Shown: piece by piece, positions 1 to 14,816 of the stretch | How positions within the stretch are numbered: position 1 is the first letter of the stretch | How the letters are laid out: each line of letters begins with the position of its first letter | From: Magnetococcales bacterium | GTDB taxonomy: Bacteria > Pseudomonadota > Magnetococcia > Magnetococcales > DC0425bin3 | Length of the DNA: 32,620 bases | Direction of reading: 5' to 3' | Assembly: GCA_015231175.1 (NCBI GenBank) | Contig: JADGBZ010000035.1 | Coordinates: 1 to 32,620, forward strand | The notes under the pieces: generated by a model | What the model was told of the DNA's origin: nothing | Seen by the model: only the letters and a program-made list of their open reading frames with translations | The model's database searches: none | Program-made: the position numbers and the translations under genes

Positions 1-282
1 AAGGCAGGCGTAGCCAAGACAGCCACGGCTGCCATGACACCCCCCCCTCTCCCCCACCCCCAAACCGTCGTCCTGGTTGGCACCAAATCAGCCTTGGCCG
101 GAACCGTAGCCAAAGCCGGCGGCACCATTTGGACCGGAACAGGCGCCACCCTGGGATTGGGCCTGGGTCTGGGGGCCTGGGGTCCGGTTCTGCTGATTGG
201 TGTAGCCACATTGGTCGGGTACGGCGTTCACCACTATGTCACCCTGCGCCGCTCCGCATCCGCTCAGAGCAATAACATTTGA
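1..282 (+). CDS. Mms6/MamD-family magnetosome membrane protein, C-terminal part (5' end outside window)
   Basis: The frame is open from base 1, so the start lies upstream; the ATG at 34 is probably internal. The visible part has a Gly/Ala/Thr-rich stretch, then an AGGTIWTGTG segment, the Leu-Gly repeat GLGLGLGAWGP and a hydrophobic helix, ending in a short basic/polar tail (RRSASAQSNNI). A TIWTG motif followed by the LG repeat and AWGP is the signature of the magnetosome proteins Mms6 and MamD (Mms7), which sit in the magnetosome membrane and affect crystal growth. The strongly acidic C-terminal tail that binds iron in classical Mms6 is missing, so MamD or a variant Mms6 are both possible. 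The downstream mamX and mamZ support a magnetosome role. Family is confident, subfamily is not. Confidence 0.8.
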   Translation, partial: KAGVAKTATAAMTPPPLPHPQTVVLVGTKSALAGTVAKAGGTIWTGTGATLGLGLGLGAWGPVLLIGVATLVGYGVHHYVTLRRSASAQSNNI

Positions 283-502: not shown

Positions 503-1303
503 ATGAGCCTGCTCGACGATCCGTTTGAAAAATCCTCTCCCGCCGACCAGAACGGTAGAGGTCGAAACAACGAAGGGAGCGTCGCATCCAGGGGACTCTT
601 TGTCCCAGCCGTGGTGGGGCGTGTTCTGGTCGGTGCAGTCTTTGCAGCCGTCTTTTATTTTCTCCTGGAAAACAAATCGATCATCCCGGACAGTGCATCC
701 ACCAGTTTCGCCCCATCTTCCGCGCAAACAGTCGCTTTTCAACCCGCATCACCCGGCGGATTGAGTCAGGCCGAGATCACCTCCTTGCAGTTCATGCGCG
801 AAGAGGAGAAAATGGCCCGCGATGTCTACCGTGCGATGCATCAACGGTGGGGCCTCTCCTTGTTCAACAGCATTGCCCGATCAGAACAAAAGCACATGGA
901 TGCGGTACGTGCGTTGCTGGTCCGCTACCAAATTGCCGACCCGGTCATCGATGATACTGTCGGTGCTTTGCAAAACGCCAAATTATCCGCAACCTATCAG
1001 ACGCTGCTCAAACGTGGCGAACAATCCGTCAACGAGGCGTTACGTGTCGGGGGTTTCATCGAGGAGGTGGACATTTCCGATCTGAATGAGGGCATCAAAG
1101 GTGCGCAGCACCAGGATATCATTCAGGTCTATCAGGCCATACGCGGAGGCTCGTTCAACCACCTGCGAGCGTTCGTGCATGGTTTGGAATTGCGGGGGCA
1201 GACCTACAGTCCGGTCATCATGCATCAACAATCCCTGGACACCATCATCCACAGTCCCATGGAGATGGGTCCGCCGCAGGTACAGGTGATGGGACCGCGT
1301 TGA
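503..1303 (+). CDS. Membrane-anchored DUF2202 (ferritin-like) protein in the magnetosome cluster
   Basis: 266 residues from ATG 503, chosen because GGAG lies 5-8 bases upstream; an in-frame start at 458 is possible but has no comparable ribosome site. Residues about 31-56 form one transmembrane segment after a short polar cytoplasmic N-terminus, then a Ser/Pro-rich linker to about 85. Residues 88-240 match the DUF2202 four-helix ferritin-like fold: EEEKMARDVY (100-109), SEQKHMD (127-133), EEVDISDL (187-194), H203 and NHLRAF (219-224). The Glu and His residues are placed as in a carboxylate-bridged diiron site. In topology the domain would face the periplasm or magnetosome lumen. DUF2202 proteins are uncharacterised; an iron or oxygen-related role here is inferred from fold and neighbours. 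Gene follows the Mms6/MamD-type gene by 220 bp and is separated from mamX by a MITE. Confidence 0.85.
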   Translation: MSLLDDPFEKSSPADQNGRGRNNEGSVASRGLFVPAVVGRVLVGAVFAAVFYFLLENKSIIPDSASTSFAPSSAQTVAFQPASPGGLSQAEITSLQFMREEEKMARDVYRAMHQRWGLSLFNSIARSEQKHMDAVRALLVRYQIADPVIDDTVGALQNAKLSATYQTLLKRGEQSVNEALRVGGFIEEVDISDLNEGIKGAQHQDIIQVYQAIRGGSFNHLRAFVHGLELRGQTYSPVIMHQQSLDTIIHSPMEMGPPQVQVMGPR

Positions 1304-1489: not shown

Positions 1490-2254
1490 TTGAAAAATAT
1501 CGCTGAGTGGATCATGGCCGCCGGGGTGGTCTTCAGTATCGGTCTGCTGCTGCTGACCATCATCCCCGACAATCCGTGGAATGACCACGTCTACAATAAT
1601 GTGCCCCCCATCGTCGCCGGGGTTGCATCGCCCCACAAAAATGGGCGACAGATGATGGTCTGTTCCAGTTGCCACGAGGTCATGCAGATCGATGGTACCG
1701 GTCAGACCCGGGCCATTCCCCCCGTCATCGAGGGGACGCCCAACCCCCACCCGGATGCCCGAGGACAACAAAATTGTGGTCGCTGCCACAAGATGATCAG
1801 TCGGCAACAGATCGCCACACTGCATCAGTTGCGGCAGGCTCCGGCCTCCATCCCCGTTGCCTTGACCCCCGGGTTACCCCCTGCCTCGACCTCTCTGCTC
1901 GACCCCGAATCCCACGAACGCTTTCAGGTCGTTCGTTTCCAGGGCAAGGTCCGGCATGTATACTGGAAGTCGCCGCGCGTCACTCTGGACAATCAGGAAG
2001 GGGTGATCATCCTCGTTGACGATGGCGTCAACGAACCCGTCTGGCTGGATCTGGGGCCACGCGGCAACCTGGAACAACAAGGGTGTGGCGTCCAGGTCGG
2101 AACCTACATCAAGGGAACAGCCTTCCAGGAAGCCAGTGTGCAGGTTGCCCAAATGCAATATGCCAAAACCCTCGCCATCCATGGCCAATTCTGCACCCTG
2201 CGTGACAATCATCTGCGCAGTTGGACCCCAGGACTGGACAGCGATGAAGAGTGA
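1490..2254 (+). CDS. mamX: MamX, magnetosome c-type cytochrome (magnetochrome) protein
   Basis: 254 residues. The start is TTG 1490, with AGGA five bases upstream; it gives the N-terminal sequence MKNIAEWI before a signal-anchor helix (residues about 8-25), as in known MamX. The segment PDNPWNDHVYNN (26-37) is typical of MamX. Two haem-binding CxxCH motifs lie at 58-62 (CSSCH) and 96-100 (CGRCH), each in a 'P-PH.G...C..CH' magnetochrome context. The C-terminal part (about 140-250) looks like a small beta-rich domain and has no further haem motif. MamX is a periplasmic/magnetosome redox protein needed for proper magnetite maturation and acts genetically with MamZ. mamZ starts 21 bp downstream, so the two are probably co-transcribed; mamY and ftsZm, seen in the mamXY operon of magnetospirilla, are not here. 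Confidence 0.93.
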   Translation: MKNIAEWIMAAGVVFSIGLLLLTIIPDNPWNDHVYNNVPPIVAGVASPHKNGRQMMVCSSCHEVMQIDGTGQTRAIPPVIEGTPNPHPDARGQQNCGRCHKMISRQQIATLHQLRQAPASIPVALTPGLPPASTSLLDPESHERFQVVRFQGKVRHVYWKSPRVTLDNQEGVIILVDDGVNEPVWLDLGPRGNLEQQGCGVQVGTYIKGTAFQEASVQVAQMQYAKTLAIHGQFCTLRDNHLRSWTPGLDSDEE

Positions 2255-2275: not shown

Positions 2276-4219
2276 ATGACCCAGCATGACACCGAGCCGG
2301 CGCAGAATCTTTTCAGTCCAAAACACTGGAACACCTTTTATCTCCTGTCGGCCCTCAGCACCCTGGTGATCTCCTTGACGGTGGCCTTGCAGCCGCTGTT
2401 TCTGGATGAGGTGTTGAAAATACCCTTCGAGAATGAGGGGAATATCAACGCCCATGTGCAGGTCGTCACCCAGATTATCAGCCTGGGAATCACCTTCTTC
2501 CTGGGCCAATCCTGGAGCCGCCAGCACGTCACCAATCCTCTTTTGTATGGATTTTGGCTTGCCTCCCTGGGCGCCCTGCTGATCCCCTTGAGCGAGGGTA
2601 TCGAACTCCTGTTCGGCGTCGGCAGCCTGCTTTTCTATTACCTGATGCGCATCCTGATCACGGCTGGCAGCGATACGGTCCAGATGAACCTCTCCACCCT
2701 GGGAGGCGACGCCACCTGGCAGCGCAAGGAGTCCCCCCTGCTGGCCAACATGACCGTCATGATGGCCTTCGGCGCCACGGTGGTCTGCGCCATCCTGATG
2801 CAGATCCCCATCTCCTCCAGCAACATCCATCTCATCATGATGATGCCCTTCCTCGCGGCCCTGCTCGGGGCCGTGGTCACCCAGAGGCACATGCCAGGGC
2901 ACATCTCATCCCAGATCAGGAGCACAACCCCCCTGGACACCGCCTGGGAACTGATCACCAGCGACCCGCGCCTACAGCTTTGTTTTGCCTCGGCGTTTTA
3001 TGTCCGTGCCGACATGGTGGTGACCAGCCTGTTCCTCTCTCTCTGGTGCATCTCCTTTGCCGACATCGTGGGTGTCACGCGCATCCAGGCGGTGGGTCAG
3101 GCAGGTTTGCTGCTGGGCTATATGGGAGTTGTCGTTCTCCTCGCCATGCCTCTCTGGACCCGTTTCATGCAGCATCACAGCCGCATCTCCGCCATTGGCG
3201 CGGGTCTCTCCCTGGCCGGTTTTGGCTTCATCCTCATGGGGTGGATGGATGGCAACCCCTACGACTGGAGCACCATGCTGCTGCCACTCTTCCTGGTCGG
3301 CATCGGTCAGGCCGGATGTCTGGTGGCCCCCAAAATCCTTGCCACGGAACTCTCCCCCAAACATATCCTGGGCTCGGTACAGGGTATTTTGATCCTGGTC
3401 AGCGGCATGGGTATCGTCATGCTGGTGCAGAGCGGCGGTTACTACTTCGATGCCGTGGGGCCCAAATCCCCCTTTGTCCTCATGGGAACCGGCCACCTGC
3501 TGGTCATGCTCTATGCCTTCTGGCTGCTGAAAAACGGGATGGACGAGAGCGATGATCACGTTTTGACCAAAAAGCGCCGCAAAACCAGCCTGAAACCTCT
3601 CATCGCCATGATCTCCATGTTGCCGATCATCTGGTTGGTCGGGCGCATGTTGATCGGCGGCATCTCCCTGGGCAGTTCCCTCGGACAAATGCCCGTCGGC
3701 TTCATCAATCGTTATCTGGGCGACTGGGCCTTCAACTTTTTGATCGTCTCACTCGCCATTCGCCCCATCCATGAATTGACCAGGATCAAGGTTCTCATGC
3801 AGTACACACGCATGATCGGCCTGTATGCGGCCTTTTATGCCTTCCTGCATGTGCTCACCTACTTCAGCCTGGAGTGGGTCTTCAACTGGTCGGGCATTTA
3901 TGGCGACATCGTCAAGCGCCCGTTCATCCTGTTGGGCATGGTCGCTTTTCTCATGCTGGTCGTGTTGACGGTCACCTCCACCCACAACATGGTGCGCAAG
4001 CTGGGCCACAAAAAATGGAAAAAAATCCATTCCCTGGTCTATGGCATCAACATACTCGTCGCCTTTCATTTTTGGTTCGCAGCCACCCACGAAAATGGCG
4101 AACCTATTGTCTATGTCATCGTGGTGCTGCTCCTGCTCGGCTTTCGCCTGAAGGAAAAAAGCAAATCCGGAAAGGGCGCAGCCCCTCCTCCTGGAGCTCC
4201 ATCCCGGCCTACAACGTGA
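2276..4219 (+). CDS. mamZ: MamZ, MFS transporter fused to a YedZ/ferric-reductase-like domain
   Basis: 647 residues. Residues about 15-425 form a 12-helix major-facilitator (MamH-like) region. After a short basic linker (KKRRKTSLK), residues about 435-625 form a six-helix YedZ/MsrQ-type ferric reductase transmembrane domain with histidines suited to b-haem ligation (for example in YAFLHVLTYF, HSLVYGINILVAFHFW). This two-part architecture is diagnostic of MamZ, a magnetosome protein thought to couple iron transport with iron reduction. It follows mamX by 21 bp. The 3' end overlaps the convergent ppk2 gene by 11 bp (4209-4219), so this is the physical edge of the magnetosome genes on this side. 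Length is close to the family norm (about 650). Confidence 0.95.
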   Translation: MTQHDTEPAQNLFSPKHWNTFYLLSALSTLVISLTVALQPLFLDEVLKIPFENEGNINAHVQVVTQIISLGITFFLGQSWSRQHVTNPLLYGFWLASLGALLIPLSEGIELLFGVGSLLFYYLMRILITAGSDTVQMNLSTLGGDATWQRKESPLLANMTVMMAFGATVVCAILMQIPISSSNIHLIMMMPFLAALLGAVVTQRHMPGHISSQIRSTTPLDTAWELITSDPRLQLCFASAFYVRADMVVTSLFLSLWCISFADIVGVTRIQAVGQAGLLLGYMGVVVLLAMPLWTRFMQHHSRISAIGAGLSLAGFGFILMGWMDGNPYDWSTMLLPLFLVGIGQAGCLVAPKILATELSPKHILGSVQGILILVSGMGIVMLVQSGGYYFDAVGPKSPFVLMGTGHLLVMLYAFWLLKNGMDESDDHVLTKKRRKTSLKPLIAMISMLPIIWLVGRMLIGGISLGSSLGQMPVGFINRYLGDWAFNFLIVSLAIRPIHELTRIKVLMQYTRMIGLYAAFYAFLHVLTYFSLEWVFNWSGIYGDIVKRPFILLGMVAFLMLVVLTVTSTHNMVRKLGHKKWKKIHSLVYGINILVAFHFWFAATHENGEPIVYVIVVLLLLGFRLKEKSKSGKGAAPPPGAPSRPTT

Positions 4220-5165: not shown

Positions 5166-8100
5166 GCCACCTTTTCCAGTGCGATGTGGAGAGAGACACC
5201 CTCCAGCTTGAGGAGCTCCCCCCCCTGCAAGCCAGGTTGATGGGTGATGGTTTGGGCCAGCAACTCCTGGCACAACAAGGCGTTGTGGGTCTGCACGGCA
5301 GTGACCAGAGATTCTGGTCCATCGAACGATATACGAACCCGGTCGGTGATCTCCAAACCGGTCTCCCGGCGCATATTTTGCGCTATGCGATTGAAATGTC
5401 TCGCCAATCCTTCTGCGGCCAACTCCTTTGTCACCTCCGTCTCCAGGAGCACCAGGGTACCCTTCTCCCGCCCGGCCAATAAACCGGGTCCGGCATCCCA
5501 GGAAAATTGCAGGTCGGCAGCGGTGACCGCCAAATCCCGACCATCGTCCAGCGTCAAGGTCCAGGAGTGACCACCCGCAACGGCCTGTTGCAGCATGAGG
5601 GGGTCGGCTGCGGCGATACTGGCCACCACTTGCGGCATCTGTTTTTCAGCCTTGGCGCCCAGGGTGCGGTAGTTGGGACGCACCTTGACCTCAACACCAT
5701 GCGCATCGGCCAGGATTTTGAGTGTTTTGATATTGCACTCGTCGAGAATCTGCCCGACCAGGGATGGCTCATCCAGGACTGCCCGCTCCTGAAGATCGGA
5801 CGGCAGCACGCGAATGGCGCCCAAAGGTTGCCGGGTCTTGGTCTTGCACGTGTTGCGCAAGGCCAGAACGATGTTTTTGATCTTGAGGACACTCTCCATC
5901 TGTTGCTCCAGATGGAGATCACGCAAGGCTGGCTGCGGCTGCGGATAGGGGCGCAAGTGAACCGACAGCGGGGCATCCGGATCCACGGAGCGGATCAGAT
6001 TCTGGTAAATCTCTTCGGTCAGAAAAGGCAGGATCGGTGCCAATAGATCCATGCAGGTCACGAGAACCGTATGCAGAGTCGCGTAGGCGGCGCACTTGTC
6101 GGAGGTCAAACCGTCTCCCCAGAAGCGCCGCCGTGAACGCCGCAGATACCAGTTGGAGAGTTCATCCATGAAGTGCTCGAACTGCTCCATGAAACGATGC
6201 ACGGCAACATCGCGAAAGGCATCGTGGGCCTGCTGCATCAGCAGTTGCAAACGGCTGAGGATCCAGCGGTCCGGCTGTGGCCGATCACCCGGCGGAGGAT
6301 CCTGCACACCGGGGCGCCATTGATCCACCTGGGCATAGGAGACAAAAAAGCTGTAGCAGTTCCAGAAGGTGAGCAGCTTGCGCCGCACTTCGGCATCGGG
6401 GTGGTTGGCCTTGCTCTCCTGGTGGTCCAGCCGGGGAAAATTGAGGTTGGTCGTCGGGTTCTGGCTGGCATAGAGGTAGCGCATCACATCCGCGCCCAGG
6501 ATATCGGCGGCATCGTCGAAAAAGATGGCATTGCCGGTGGATTTATGCATCTCCCTGCCCTGCTCGTCGCGAACCAGGCCATGACCCAGCAAGGTTTTGA
6601 AAGGGGCGCGCCCTTCCAGTTTCACGCTCATGGCGAGCAGGGAGTAGAACCAGTTGCGAAACTGGCCCGGAAAGCACTCGATCACCATGTCGGCGGGAAA
6701 ATGATTTTCCCAATAGCGCCGGTCGCTGTTGTAGCGCACCGTGCTGAACGGAACGATGCCTGCGTCCAGCCAGGGGTTGCCCACATCCTCGACCCGGCTG
6801 GCCAACTGGCCGCACCGTTCACAGGTGATCTTGATCCGGTCGATGTGGGGCCGGTGCGGCGAGTGGCCCGCAAAGGCGTCCCATCCTTCCACCGCTTTCG
6901 CCTTGAGCTCCTCCTCACCGCCAATAACCGTGAACCAGTGACAGGCATGGCACTCCCATATGGGCAGGGCCAAACCCCAAAAACGCTTTTTGGAGATCAA
7001 CCAATCTCCCATGTTGTGCAGCCAATCCTGCTCCCGCGCCTCGCCGTCGACAGGAATCCAGCGGATGCCCGGAACCACTTTTTTGATCCGGTCCCGCCAC
7101 TCCATGTTGATGTACCAACCATCGATGAGACGGAACACCAATTCGGTTTTGCAGCGCCAACAGTGCGGATAGACATGTGGATACTGCTCCCGGGCAATCA
7201 GCACACCCCTGTTTTTCAGATCCTGGATCACCATGGCGCTGACATCCAGGACGCTCTGGCCGGCGTAGGGGCCAAACTGCTCCAGAAAAATGCCGTTGTC
7301 ATCCAACGGGGCCACGATGGCCAGGGCGTGTTCCCGGCCCAGGTGATAGTCTTCCGTACCGCAGCCGGGGGCAATGTGGACGATGCCGGTCCCCTCCGTA
7401 CCGCTGATCTCTTTCCAGGGGATGGCGCGATGTCCCGCCACCGCGCTGTCCGTCACCCCCGGCGTCGGACCAAACGGGGTGACTCCTCCCGGCGTTTGCA
7501 TGGCGGTCAATGCATCGCATGGGCCGGCGTAGGTCAGACCGAGCAACGCCTCGCCGGGCATTTCCGCCAAAATCTCCGCCTCTCCACCCACACCTTTGAG
7601 TATCTGGGCCAGGGAGGGAAGGTTGGCAACCCGTTTTTGTCCTTCCGCTTCCAGCTCCTGACGCCGTTTGTGGGAAAAATTGTCCTTGCCGACGTAATAG
7701 ACCCAGCCGCCGTGTCGAATCTTCAGGTAGGTCATCTCCGGGTTGATGGCCACCGCAACATTGGATGTCAGGGTCCAGGGGGTGGTGGTCCACACCAGAA
7801 AGGCCTCCCTCTCCCGTCCCAGGATGGGAAAACGCACGTAGACCGAGGTGTGTTCCGTGATTTTCCGGCCTTCGGCAACCTCCATCTGGGAGAGCCCGGT
7901 GCCACAGCGCGGGCACCAGGTCATGACGTCCGTGCCGCGATAGATGTGACCATCGGCGTGGCACTTTTTTAAAAAACTCCAGATCGTGTAATTGTTCTCG
8001 TTGGAAAAGGTGAAATAACTGCCACCGTATTCCGGGCTGCCCAGGTTGGCGATGATCTGTTCGGGCGTGCCTGTGAAACGATTCCCGGATGGGGCCGTGT

Positions 8101-9442: not shown

Positions 9443-9597
9443 CAAGCACTCCGAAGCGATGGTCAAAAAAAATCGACGTTGCTTGACAAAGGGAGCCGAT
9501 CCGTGCTCTTTGGGGAGCGCGATGCGGTGGAAGGGCCATTCGGCTCGGCGGATTGAAATTCTTCGACTTAACCAAAACAGGAAAGAGGAGCGTGGAG

Positions 9598-12138
9598 ATG
9601 GCTCGATTACAAAATGTGAGGGCTGGGCGACTTTTGTCGGTAGCGGGGGTTGCTGCTTTGGCGTTTGGTGTGGCCGCCTGCGGTGGTGGTGGCGGTTCCA
9701 GTAGCTCTCCGTCCGAAGCCGGGACGGTATACGCCGGCGGTACCCTGATCGGGGCCACCGTCTGTATCGATAACAACAACGACCAGGCCTGCGACTCCCC
9801 CTCCTCGACCACGACCACCGACGCCGATGGTAAGTTCACTCTCTCGACCAGTGGAAGATTGCTGGTCAAGGGCGGTTACGACATGGACTCCCTGGTGACA
9901 GGGAAGACCATGGCCAATTGGAAGGCCGATGGGAACGTCGCCAATGCCTCTCTGTATTTCAACCCTTATGTAGGCGCCCTGACCGCCCCCTCCGGCGCTG
10001 CGGCGATCACCCCCATCACGACCATGGTCCAAACCCTGGTTGACAGCGGCACCCCCGTCGCCGACGCCCAGACCAATATCCAGAAATCTCTGGGAATCGA
10101 TGCGACCGTCAGCCTGATCGGTTCCTCTGCCATGCAGTCCCTGACCAGCCCGGCTGCCATGCTCGGCATTCAATCCCTGGGTCGCATGTTCCGACAGGCG
10201 GCAACCTCCATCTCGGCTGCCTCCGGCATCGATACCTCGGTCACGACTTACAGCGCGACGACCGATGCCAGCAAGGGTGACGTGGCGAGAATCTTCCTGA
10301 GCGTGGCCAAGGCTGCCGCCAACGCCATGAACACCAACGCGACCCTGGCTGCGCCTGTGGTGTACAGCTTCACCGGCGACACCGCCACACAAACAACCGC
10401 GCTGGGCACCCTGGTCACCACCGTCATCACCAACGCAGTCACTACGGTCTCCAGTGACGCCGCGTTCGCGGCCTCGACAAGCCTGGCCAAGATCAGCCCG
10501 GCTGGCATCGCTGCCCTTGCCGGGGATTCGATCGTGTCGGGCGTGCAAAACGTCGCCAAGCTGGTCAAAACGGCGGGGGCCAACTTCCCGGTCGGAGCCA
10601 CCCTGGCGGATGTGACGGCCCAGTTGCAGGCCCAGAAGATGGATACCTTGATCAGCGCCCAGGAGCGTATGGATGTCGTGGCGCAACAGTTGACGGATCC
10701 GACTGTGCAGGCCATGGTCACCCGGGCCTACCTCCCCAGCGGTGGTCTGGGCGCCCTGGAGGCCAAGATCAAAGCCATCGGCACCGAGTTGGCGGCGGCG
10801 CAAACCCTCCTGAAGGACAATCAGGGTGACCTGACGAGTACGAATGTCACCACCGGTATCATGCAGGCCATGACCGGTGCGCTCCTCCAGATGGCCAACG
10901 TGGCTGCGGATCCAAGCTTCGTCAAGACCAATCTTCCCTCCACAGTCGAAATTCCGACTGCTCTCAACATTAGCCAAAAAATGGTCAAATTCGTGGAAAA
11001 TTCGCAGGCCGCCTTCTTCGGGCCCAACGTTTCTGCGGACCAGACCTACACCCTCACGACCAACATGATGGGTGGCATGCAGACCAAACTGAATGCTGTC
11101 AAGGGGATGACGGGTTATGCCATCACCGTGACCGATGATGTCATCGCCAATTCAGTCTCTGTCGTTGTGACGGAAGTCCAGAAGCAACCCAAGTTGAAGG
11201 GGGTCTTCAATGCGACCAAACTCGCCACCCTGGGCAATGCGGTCCAGGCGGTGATCTTGAACCAGGTGGGTGGAAATCAGGCTGCGTTTGATGCCCTGAT
11301 TGGCAAAAACCCAACCATCGTGACCACGATCCAGACCGTCAACGGCGGCAAGGCCGTGAATGGCGCATCTGCGGTGGTGATCACTTCCACCATCACGGTT
11401 CCCGGTTCCACGGTACCTGCGGTTGTGGTGCCTTATGCCGGCAAGAACGGGCTGGTGCTGGTCGACAACAAGGTGACCGTGAACGGCACCGCCGCCACCA
11501 CCACCTCCAGCGGCAGCTTCACCCTCTCCCCCTTCGTACCCAATACGTCCGTGTTTGGCGGTATTTCCACGCTGACCTTTGTAGCCAAGGTGGCAAATGA
11601 ACCTTTTGGCGCCGGCGTCACCAGCAAATCCGTCAAAGTGGGTGTCTCCGTCATCCCCGTTGATTCGACAGGAGCAGCCAGCACGACCAACAGGCGTCGG
11701 TTGAGCATGGTCATCGATGGGGTCACTCTGACCCTCAACGGCACATTGTTGACCGCCAACATCCCGACGACCTCCAGTCTTTACTACTCCATCACCAATA
11801 CCAGCGGTACCACGTTTACCGCTACGACCGCCAATCCCAAAGCAGATGCCATCACAGTCAGCAGCGATGATGCAGTCAAGACGGGCGCCACCATCACCCT
11901 CGACGGCGCCAGCCTGATTCCCAAGGCTGCGAATGTCTTGATTGCCCAAGACGATCAGGGCAATGGCTCTTCCGCCTACTGGCCGTGGAACTCGGGCGCC
12001 AAGTTCAGCATCACGACCTACATTGATGGTGTGACCCTCCTCGACAAGGATGGAAACAACATTGATACCGGATCCTTGTCGGTCAATGGCGCGTCCGTCA
12101 ACGGCAGCAAGTTGACCGGTGTGGCAACCATCCAATAG
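9598..12138 (+). CDS. Large Thr/Ala/Val-rich lipoprotein, function unknown
   Basis: 846 residues from ATG 9598, with GAGGAG seven bases upstream. A lipoprotein signal peptide ends in GVAAC; Cys28 would be lipidated and is followed by a Gly/Ser linker. Residues about 40-85 (GGTLIGATVCIDNNNDQACD then TTTDADGKFTLS) resemble a carboxypeptidase-regulatory/prealbumin-like fold common at the start of surface lipoproteins, followed by an ITPITTMVQTLVDSGTPVADA segment that often accompanies it. The long middle part is helical and Ala/Thr-rich; the last 250 residues look beta-rich with many Thr/Ser/Val. Only Cys28, Cys46 and a second Cys in the N-terminal domain were noticed. Likely exposed on the outer membrane. 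A stable hairpin lies 26 bp after the stop. No function is assigned. Confidence 0.85.
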   Translation: MARLQNVRAGRLLSVAGVAALAFGVAACGGGGGSSSSPSEAGTVYAGGTLIGATVCIDNNNDQACDSPSSTTTTDADGKFTLSTSGRLLVKGGYDMDSLVTGKTMANWKADGNVANASLYFNPYVGALTAPSGAAAITPITTMVQTLVDSGTPVADAQTNIQKSLGIDATVSLIGSSAMQSLTSPAAMLGIQSLGRMFRQAATSISAASGIDTSVTTYSATTDASKGDVARIFLSVAKAAANAMNTNATLAAPVVYSFTGDTATQTTALGTLVTTVITNAVTTVSSDAAFAASTSLAKISPAGIAALAGDSIVSGVQNVAKLVKTAGANFPVGATLADVTAQLQAQKMDTLISAQERMDVVAQQLTDPTVQAMVTRAYLPSGGLGALEAKIKAIGTELAAAQTLLKDNQGDLTSTNVTTGIMQAMTGALLQMANVAADPSFVKTNLPSTVEIPTALNISQKMVKFVENSQAAFFGPNVSADQTYTLTTNMMGGMQTKLNAVKGMTGYAITVTDDVIANSVSVVVTEVQKQPKLKGVFNATKLATLGNAVQAVILNQVGGNQAAFDALIGKNPTIVTTIQTVNGGKAVNGASAVVITSTITVPGSTVPAVVVPYAGKNGLVLVDNKVTVNGTAATTTSSGSFTLSPFVPNTSVFGGISTLTFVAKVANEPFGAGVTSKSVKVGVSVIPVDSTGAASTTNRRRLSMVIDGVTLTLNGTLLTANIPTTSSLYYSITNTSGTTFTATTANPKADAITVSSDDAVKTGATITLDGASLIPKAANVLIAQDDQGNGSSAYWPWNSGAKFSITTYIDGVTLLDKDGNNIDTGSLSVNGASVNGSKLTGVATIQ

Positions 12139-12164
12139 TCACAAGAACAAAAAAAGCTGTTGAC

Positions 12165-12201
12165 GCAAAGGCAGGTTCCGGTTGATTGAACCTGCCTTTG
12201 C
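12165..12201. terminator. Perfect 14-bp stem hairpin after the lipoprotein gene
   Basis: GCAAAGGCAGGTTC (12165-12178), a nine-base loop, then GAACCTGCCTTTGC (12188-12201). It lies 26 bp after the stop of the lipoprotein gene. No U-tract follows on the + strand, so it could be a weak or Rho-assisted terminator or an mRNA 3'-end stabiliser. Confidence 0.6.
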
Positions 12202-12424
12202 ACCTCAAGTGCCCAGTCTACGTTGGCCAACGGAAGAGGAGAATTCCCCCACTCCCTGGCTGGGCCCTTTCTTACCCTTCCCTGCTGCCTCCCCCTTCGG
12301 CTACAATTCTGGGCTGTTCCTCCTCAAGTTGAACATACAACGCGCTCGTGTTGTTTTTTTTCGTCCCTGTGCCAGACCGGCTGCCGAGGCCCGTTCTGGT
12401 CTGTCGGTTATTGGTGACACTGCC

Positions 12425-14485
12425 ATGGTACAAAGAAATTTACGGGACTTGCGGCAATTTGAGAGTATGGACCAGTTTGCGCAAACCTACCTGAAGCGGT
12501 TATACGAAACGATCAACGACCTTGAATCCCTGAGTGGTATCGACCCTGACGAACTTCCCAACGTCGTCGGGAGAATGGTGCGAACCTTTTCCGAAATTCG
12601 TGATGCATCCAGCACCCTTGGCAAAAATAATATTTATCTATTGAGTCAATATCTTGAAAGGTTGGCCGAAAAATTACACCAGAGAAAATTGCCTCTGAGA
12701 GTCAGCACCATGGCAGTCATGGTTTCAGCCGCCACGACGCTGCGGGGCCTTGTGGTCGATATCGCCATCAGCGACACCATGGATATAGGTGAAGATGTCG
12801 ATGCCTTGAAAGATCTCGTCGGGGATATTTCCCTTTCCCCGGACGGAGAGTCAAGCGACATTTCCGGTAATATGGTTCCCACCCGCGAGGTAGACGCGCA
12901 AGACGCGAGGCAACCGGTCAGCCTCGACCATTTTGTTCGAAAATCAACTTTCCAGGAAGATCAGGATCGGGTCGAACTGGGCCGCGAAAGGCAAATCCGG
13001 GAGGCACAGGCCAGGGAGAGCGCTGCCTTGGAGTTGCAGGCCCGGGAAGACCAGGATTTCGAAGCAAAAGTCCGGGAGGATCGAGCATGGGAAAACCAAC
13101 CCCGCGAGGCCCAGGTAACCAAGACATCGAGTCGTGATGATCGTGACCAGGATACAGATACAGGTGGCGGGGATGCCAAGCCCGGCGATAGGCAAGCCGG
13201 GCAGGTCCATGATGAGCAAGTTGGACAGGCGCATGTGTCGAAGGACCAGGCCAACAGGAAGCAACCTCCCAAGCCCAAACAGAATATGCTGGTCCAGGTG
13301 TTGCTCAGGCTCGCTGTATCCGGGCTTATGCTTGCGCTTGTCATTCTGGTACTTGAAAAAACAAAAATTGTAAAAAAACCCCTTACACCCTCATCCACCG
13401 AAACACCCGCCTCACCCCTACCCGCTGCACCGATGCTGGCCGAAAAGTCTCTATCCTACCTCGTGGCAACCCCTCTTCTTGCGGCCCTGACAAACGAACC
13501 GCCAGCCACCAACAATCTTGCCGGCGCGACGCCACCCGGAAAGACCGGTCAGACTTCCTCCCAACCTTCTGCCAACCCTGGCGAGTTGGCCAGCGCCCAT
13601 ATGGCGGATGTCTCCTCATCCGAACAGACGATGGCAGCCAGACCTGTGGAGTCTCCAGTGCCTGAATCCGCGCAGACATGGGCGCCGGTCTCCGAGCGAC
13701 ACCCAGCCTTGACGGCGGAATTGGCAGCCCTGGTTGCGGCGCCAATCCTGCCATCAGAGCCAAACTCAGCCAACCCGCCACCGACCCCTGCTTCTGAACG
13801 AACCCCCGACAGTGCGCCTGCAACCCAACCCGAACGGACATCGGAAAGTGTGGTCTCTCCCCCTCCTTCCGGTACTGATCGTGCGCCTGCAGCCCAACCC
13901 GGACAGACATCGGAAAGTGTGGTCTTTCCCCCTCCTTCCGGTACTGATCGTGCGCCTGCAACCCAACCCGGACAGACATCGGAAAGTGTGGTCTCTCCCC
14001 CTCCTTCCGGTACTGGCCGTGCGCACACAGCCCCGGTTGCCCACCCGGAAATGCTCCCCTTTTCCGACTGGCTCAAACCCATGGACCGTCTTCTCTCTTC
14101 ACCCTACCTGACCCTGACGCCGGGCAAGGGTCAGCCACCGGGAAGGCTTGACTATCATTTCGGGGAAAATGGCGACCTGTTGTTTTCCGTCGAACAGTTG
14201 TTGGGACACACCGCCGCCCGTCCCGGGGAACTCTTTGTCATCACGGCTGAAACGGTCACCCAGCTCAGGGTGGTGTTTCAGGTGGTCCCCCGTGAAGCCT
14301 ATATGTTTCCCGTGGACAACAGTGGCCGGGTCACTGTTCCCCGCGCCTTTTGGGAAGCCTTTGTTCGTGTCAGCAAGCGGGCTGTCAGCCTGAGCCGTGT
14401 TGTCAGTGACCATTCGAGCATCGTTGCCCTCCGGGATCTGGAGGCTGTCACGGTGCAATCGATTGCCGAACAGATCAAACGATAA
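12425..14485 (+). CDS. Single-pass membrane protein with charged coiled region and Pro/Ser-rich tandem repeats, unknown function
   Basis: 686 residues from ATG 12425. The open frame reaches back to 12182, but that would run through a hairpin and a low-quality stretch; the sequence becomes protein-like only at MVQRNLRDL. The start lacks a strong Shine-Dalgarno. Residues 1-135 are helical (YLKRLYETINDLESL, YLERLAEKLHQRKLP); 150-280 are highly charged with repeated R-E-x-Q/R-E-D units; one transmembrane helix lies at about 289-311. Outside the membrane come a Pro/Ser/Ala-rich region, a 23-residue tandem repeat (473 to about 540) and a folded-looking C-terminal domain (about 545-686). The layout resembles a cytoplasm-to-periplasm tethering protein. 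No family recognised; probably specific to this lineage. Confidence 0.8.
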   Translation: MVQRNLRDLRQFESMDQFAQTYLKRLYETINDLESLSGIDPDELPNVVGRMVRTFSEIRDASSTLGKNNIYLLSQYLERLAEKLHQRKLPLRVSTMAVMVSAATTLRGLVVDIAISDTMDIGEDVDALKDLVGDISLSPDGESSDISGNMVPTREVDAQDARQPVSLDHFVRKSTFQEDQDRVELGRERQIREAQARESAALELQAREDQDFEAKVREDRAWENQPREAQVTKTSSRDDRDQDTDTGGGDAKPGDRQAGQVHDEQVGQAHVSKDQANRKQPPKPKQNMLVQVLLRLAVSGLMLALVILVLEKTKIVKKPLTPSSTETPASPLPAAPMLAEKSLSYLVATPLLAALTNEPPATNNLAGATPPGKTGQTSSQPSANPGELASAHMADVSSSEQTMAARPVESPVPESAQTWAPVSERHPALTAELAALVAAPILPSEPNSANPPPTPASERTPDSAPATQPERTSESVVSPPPSGTDRAPAAQPGQTSESVVFPPPSGTDRAPATQPGQTSESVVSPPPSGTGRAHTAPVAHPEMLPFSDWLKPMDRLLSSPYLTLTPGKGQPPGRLDYHFGENGDLLFSVEQLLGHTAARPGELFVITAETVTQLRVVFQVVPREAYMFPVDNSGRVTVPRAFWEAFVRVSKRAVSLSRVVSDHSSIVALRDLEAVTVQSIAEQIKR
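13811..14025 (+). repeat. 69-bp in-frame tandem repeat inside the 686-residue membrane protein
   Basis: Units start at TCGGAAAGTG 13841, 13910 and 13979, exactly 69 bp apart, coding SESVVSPPPSGTDRAPA then AQPGQT (23 residues). A diverged partial unit precedes at 13811 and the third unit decays after about 46 bp. Near-identity at the DNA level suggests recent expansion by slippage or recombination. Confidence 0.95.
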
Positions 14486-14560: not shown

Positions 14561-14816
14561 GAAGAGTTGGAAAAAAAGTCAAGATTCTCTTCATCATCTC
14601 TGGACAATTTCTTGCTGCGTGTTAAAGTCACGGCTGGGGTCGGATTGCCGAAGATCCCTCGATGGGAAGAGTGCCTCGTTTCCGGTAGTTTGGTCAGAGG
14701 CGTTCAGAAGGGATGATGTAGATCTCTCTCCGAAGATTGGATGGAATGGGTGGCCGTCATCCTGGACGTCTTCACTGCCTGCCGGTCCAAAAAAGTCAAC
14801 AGGTGAGATGAATGAC

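Follow-up and report, generated by a model that had tools for sequence, protein, structure and literature searches.

A DUF2202 ferritin-like protein encoded beside mamX: a candidate accessory component of magnetosome gene clusters in Magnetococcia

Background

What sets the balance of Fe(II) and Fe(III) for magnetite in magnetotactic bacteria is an open question. MamX, MamZ and MamH have been implicated in the redox control of biomineralisation, and a 2014 paper stated that the electron partners of MamX were unknown (PMC3971196). A non-heme ferritin-like protein encoded next to mamX is a concrete candidate in this context, and such a gene lies near the start of the window, the whole stretch of 32,620 nucleotides analysed here from a Magnetococcales bacterium (contig JADGBZ010000035.1). 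Is this gene a regular part of magnetosome clusters, and would its product handle iron? A sequence-only reading had proposed a tethered DUF2202 protein acting as an iron oxidase or iron buffer next to MamX and MamZ, as a new component of biomineralisation.

The novelty of that proposal stands only in part. Ferritin-like genes of Magnetofaba australis IT-1 and Magnetococcus marinus MC-1 have already been published, including one, 02816, common to both strains and numbered between MamX and MamC (Morillo 2014, PMC3934378). Araujo 2016 described 02816 and 02834, on the mam contig, as ferritin/ribonucleotide-reductase-like, gave their identities to the MC-1 protein as 34% and 47%, respectively, and suggested a part in controlling the redox state of iron, either on the crystal or within the vesicle (PMC5088516). 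Neither paper mentions DUF2202, the membrane anchor, the candidate ligands or how widely such genes occur, and the genes carry no mam name (PMC3934378, PMC5088516). In the literature searched, with subscription journals mostly outside its scope, the name DUF2202 was not found, nor was proteome evidence for a DUF2202 protein in the magnetosome membrane. The hunch of an iron role was reasonable and is now better grounded, but the kind of finding was already known; the family identity, the link to mamX and mamZ and the breadth of distribution are new here.

The gene and its neighbourhood

The features at the start of the window are listed in Table 1. The ATG start codon of the DUF2202 gene has GGAG ahead of it, and its product matches PF09968 over residues 92-251 (Pfam E 4e-59). 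The score of 199.5 bits against a cut-off of 22, covering profile positions 2-161 of 162, places the protein in the family and rules out a chance match.

Table 1. Coordinates of the DUF2202 gene and its neighbours in the window
Feature	Position	Strand	Description
MamD-type gene, C-terminal part	1..282	+	LG-rich, Mms6/MamD/MamG-like; partial at contig start
DUF2202 gene	503..1303	+	266 aa; ferritin-like domain at residues 87-251, preceded by an N-terminal membrane helix
DUF2202 domain proper	776..1255	+	PF09968 search of own genome; contains candidate ligands E100-E102, E128, H131, E187, H220
mamX	1490..2254	+	Membrane-anchored; two magnetochrome (CxxCH) motifs; Pfam MCR E 5e-17, two stretches
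mamZ	2276..4219	+	MFS transporter fused to ferric-reductase-like domain; Pfam MFS_1 and Ferric_reduct

Profile matches on both flanks bear out the proposed position between an Mms6/MamD-type gene and mamX. The upstream gene is cut because the contig begins at window position 1; it matches the NCBIfam models MamD (E 1e-15), Mms6 (E 5e-11) and MamG (E 3e-7), with scores under the curated cut-offs because the C-terminus alone is present. Downstream, the window MamX matches its NCBIfam model with E 2e-82, yet reaches 277 bits against a curated cut-off of 400, as do nearly all Magnetococcia MamX proteins, which likewise fall under that cut-off. Two magnetochrome motifs in tandem support the name, as does the neighbouring mamZ, whose product scores 861 bits, over its cut-off of 650. 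Farther along, two long open reading frames (861 and 767 aa; window 9553-14485) have no significant Pfam match, and Rnf-type electron-transport genes start after them, at 14619.

Fold, candidate ligands and membrane anchor

An AlphaFold model built from an alignment of 72 sequences has a pLDDT of about 97-98 across the DUF2202 domain and a poorly modelled N-terminus. The domain forms a four-helix bundle (helices 89-116, 119-141, 176-200 and 204-230), and its closest solved structures are the entries for MJ0754 of Methanocaldococcus jannaschii (PDB 3q4n, 3q4o, 3q4q, 3q4r), with a TM-score of 0.97 by target length; the Zn2+-bound 3q4r superposes with an rmsd of 0.8 over 168 columns at 43% identity. 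MJ0754 belongs to the same family (sequence E 6e-41). Further structural matches are bacterioferritins, Dps and aldehyde-deformylating oxygenases (E about 0.005-0.06).

All 69 non-magnetotactic relatives share E100-E102, E128, H131, E187, S217 and H220 without variation, and the window protein keeps every one of these residues, in line with the earlier reading that the domain has Glu and His residues typical of its fold. Assigned by motif, the candidate ligands are a Glu, E128xxH131, E187 and, on the last helix, S217xxH220. By analogy this Glu/ExxH/Glu/SxxH pattern would be close to the classical diiron one, with Ser standing where the last Glu of the classical set would be (SxxH, not ExxH). 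MJ0754 has the same residues, but it has no magnetosome context and is without H226, E229 and H250 of the window protein. In the alignment, H226 occurs in 12/12 Magnetococcia copies against 0/69 relatives, H250 in 11/12 against 0/69, and E229 in 12/12 against 27/69; the histidines that appear specific to Magnetococcia are a new observation here.

Bacterioferritin and other diiron ferritin-like proteins share the four-helix bundle and Glu/ExxH/Glu with the window protein, and are weak structural matches (E about 0.02-0.06), but there is no significant sequence match to them and the window protein has SxxH for ExxH on the last helix. Since it is membrane-anchored, a 24-subunit soluble cage seems unlikely. 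The tether by one helix holds up: a single hydrophobic segment lies at about residues 37-55, where AlphaFold places a helix at 41-56 with low confidence. By the positive-inside rule the DUF2202 domain would face the periplasm or magnetosome lumen. The mean N-terminal hydropathy peak is 2.58 in copies from magnetotactic genomes versus 1.83 in others (p 2e-9). Judging from their N-termini, the non-magnetotactic proteins mostly look like secreted proteins or lipoproteins, with a lipobox in 16/77 and an AxA-like motif in 51/77; the AxA pattern is loose and several magnetotactic copies match it too, which leaves hydropathy as the more reliable of the differences. This apparent difference in anchoring is also new here.

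Distribution and gene order in Magnetococcia

DUF2202 occurs in 11 of 48 Magnetococcia genomes, with 12 copies in total. Genome incompleteness as the cause of its absence was ruled out, as merely 7 of the 27 high-quality genomes carry it, and G003, a 100% complete genome of the same genus, is without it. A survey of Magnetococcales synteny, suggested with the original proposal, therefore gave a divided answer: the gene is not conserved throughout magnetotactic relatives, but where present it recurs in the cluster, 11 of the 12 copies lying within magnetosome clusters, with mamX, mamC or MamD as a neighbour or mamH close by. Given the patchy presence and the absence from G003, DUF2202 is at most an accessory, not a core, component of the magnetosome cluster.

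The order DUF2202-mamX-mamZ is found in six genomes (the window genome, G028, G029, G030, G034 and G039). In G037 and G038 DUF2202 comes after mamC, in G041 mamC comes after DUF2202, and in G039 mamC lies ahead of the DUF2202-mamX pair; a second G039 copy comes after a full MamD (E 3e-110), as in the window, and the G005 copy lies about 3.6 kb from mamH. These placements indicate that the neighbours vary among Magnetococcia while DUF2202 remains in the cluster. The remaining copy, in G023, is at a contig end, so its neighbourhood cannot be placed. The possibility that the gene ahead of mamX in G037 and G038 encodes a divergent ferritin-like protein was considered and ruled out: the G037 gene is MamD and the G038 gene is near-identical in make-up.

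DUF2202 is nearly confined to genomes with mamX and mamZ. Taking E below 1e-40 as true mamX and scores over the cut-off as true mamZ, both genes are found in exactly the same 23 of 48 genomes. DUF2202 is present in 10 of these 23 and absent from 13, versus 1 of the 25 others, the one being G023, which is 75% complete. The association has a Fisher p of 0.0013 for all genomes and 0.013 for the high-quality ones, values that overstate it because relatedness is ignored. As a separate observation, mamX and mamZ behave as one unit that about half of Magnetococcia are without, many of the 25 genomes missing both being over 90% complete.

Some copies look degenerate. In the mamX-adjacent copy of G039 (L052:7466-8335 (-)), T, G and A replace E100-E102 and H replaces E128, while the cluster copy of G041 (L053:10242-10790 (+)) is without helix 1 and the membrane anchor; a simple frameshift behind the missing helix was not supported. 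Because of the ligands lost in G039 and the helix lost in G041, metal binding cannot be a requirement for every copy. The first G039 copy is 34% identical to the G037 copy, equal to the published value, and for this reason G039 and G037 are probably IT-1 and MC-1. The G039 copy would then be 02816, differing from the window gene in having lost candidate ligands that the latter keeps. This mamX-adjacent copy with lost candidate ligands is a new observation here.

DUF2202 outside Magnetococcia

DUF2202 is widespread among non-magnetotactic bacteria and archaea. Among the best 80 DUF2202 loci in a bacterial and archaeal genome collection, mam genes adjoin L056 only, itself from Magnetococcales (same contig as G028), and no family-wide tie to c-type cytochromes was seen, CxxCH motifs occurring in 4/141 neighbours versus 22/573. 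L063 is the DUF2202 locus of an alphaproteobacterium with magnetochrome genes elsewhere in its genome; in the order of this organism, magnetochrome genes are found in 7 of the 9 genomes that match DUF2202 strongly versus 35 of 288 others. Three alphaproteobacterial copies do lie in magnetosome clusters: directly after mamX in G073, among mamZ, mamX, mamH and feoAB in G174, and near mamG and feoB in G337. Together with the 11 Magnetococcia copies, the recurrent location therefore spans two classes. Other copies in magnetotactic Alphaproteobacteria are outside recognisable clusters, and the majority of those sampled are without DUF2202. If this majority includes the laboratory model Magnetospirillum, as it may, that would explain why the role of DUF2202 was never put to the test.

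In a first tree, a 100/96 branch splits the 12 Magnetococcia copies from 80 others. A second tree, which omits one long-branch copy, splits 11 Magnetococcia and nine alphaproteobacterial magnetotactic copies from 41 others by a 100/97 branch, and its alphaproteobacterial part mixes cluster and non-cluster copies. Both trees are unrooted, so the separation is a split and no proven clade.

Possible role of the DUF2202 protein

The best-supported reading, to which we give a probability of roughly 0.5, is an accessory protein facing the lumen or periplasm, probably a diiron iron-handling protein, that works with MamX and MamZ. The single N-terminal helix would hold the DUF2202 domain on the same side of the membrane as the c-type hemes of MamX, and the domain probably uses its Glu, ExxH, Glu and xxH residues to bind a pair of metal ions, most likely iron. 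It could oxidise or transiently hold Fe(II) entering the lumen and, if located in the magnetosome and coupled to MamX/MamZ, would help them to set the Fe(II)/Fe(III) ratio, which makes the protein a good candidate regulator of iron oxidation within the magnetosome. Similar roles have been proposed for MamP and other magnetochrome proteins, which are also membrane-anchored and lumen-facing, MamP having ferroxidase activity (PMC3971196); those proteins differ in carrying c-type hemes, as DUF2202 has no CxxCH and another fold. Against the diiron reading stand the patchy distribution, the copies with lost ligands, the SxxH motif, the zinc in 3q4r and the magnetotactic copies outside clusters. A bolder version is doubtful: that magnetotactic DUF2202s are a distinct membrane-anchored group and join MamX, MamZ and MamH as a fourth, so far overlooked, member of their iron oxidoreductase. 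The protein would then be a non-heme diiron ferroxidase that passes electrons to or from MamX and, in Magnetococcia, bears an added His/Glu site.

The zinc and the SxxH motif would also suit a metal buffer, in which the anchored domain stores or chaperones iron (or zinc) close to the membrane of the magnetosome or of the cell without redox chemistry, and so would the extra H226, E229 and H250 of Magnetococcia. We consider such a buffer unlikely, as the protein retains the Glu/ExxH/Glu core seen in diiron proteins and MamX and MamZ, beside whose genes it recurs, have redox functions. Dps and bacterioferritin are families known for peroxide-linked iron oxidation, and their presence among the structural matches, with the spread of DUF2202 among non-magnetotactic bacteria and archaea, would fit an oxidative-stress protein that clears peroxide or curbs Fenton chemistry on the periplasmic or lumenal side, with only an indirect effect on crystals. 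General stress protection, however, would need neither the tracking of mamX/mamZ nor the retention in the cluster seen in Magnetococcia, and we regard it as less probable still. We hold it equally improbable that DUF2202 is a passenger carried along in magnetosome clusters with no part in magnetite formation. The patchy presence, the mamX-adjacent G039 copy with lost ligands, the G041 copy without helix 1 and the non-cluster copies in magnetotactic Alphaproteobacteria would all be expected of a passenger, but the cluster location is kept across two classes while the neighbour changes (mamX, mamC, MamD, mamH, feoB), and in Magnetococcia DUF2202 tracks mamX/mamZ.

Additional observations

Two magnetotactic Alphaproteobacteria carry a second kind of membrane-anchored DUF2202 away from the cluster (L157:6517-7284 (-) and L158:5930-6703 (+)), each time with the same ABC-transporter and response-regulator-like genes as neighbours. 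Ligand loss is also seen in the non-cluster copy of G064, where E128, H131 and H220 are lost. In L063, an LG-rich open reading frame of MamD-like appearance (5423-5884 (+)) directly precedes DUF2202 with housekeeping genes around; its NCBIfam MamD match has E 0.23 and it was left uncounted as MamD. Finally, a similar small membrane protein is encoded shortly upstream of DUF2202 in G039 (L052:15336-15755 (+)) and in G174 (L155:11675-12034 (+)).
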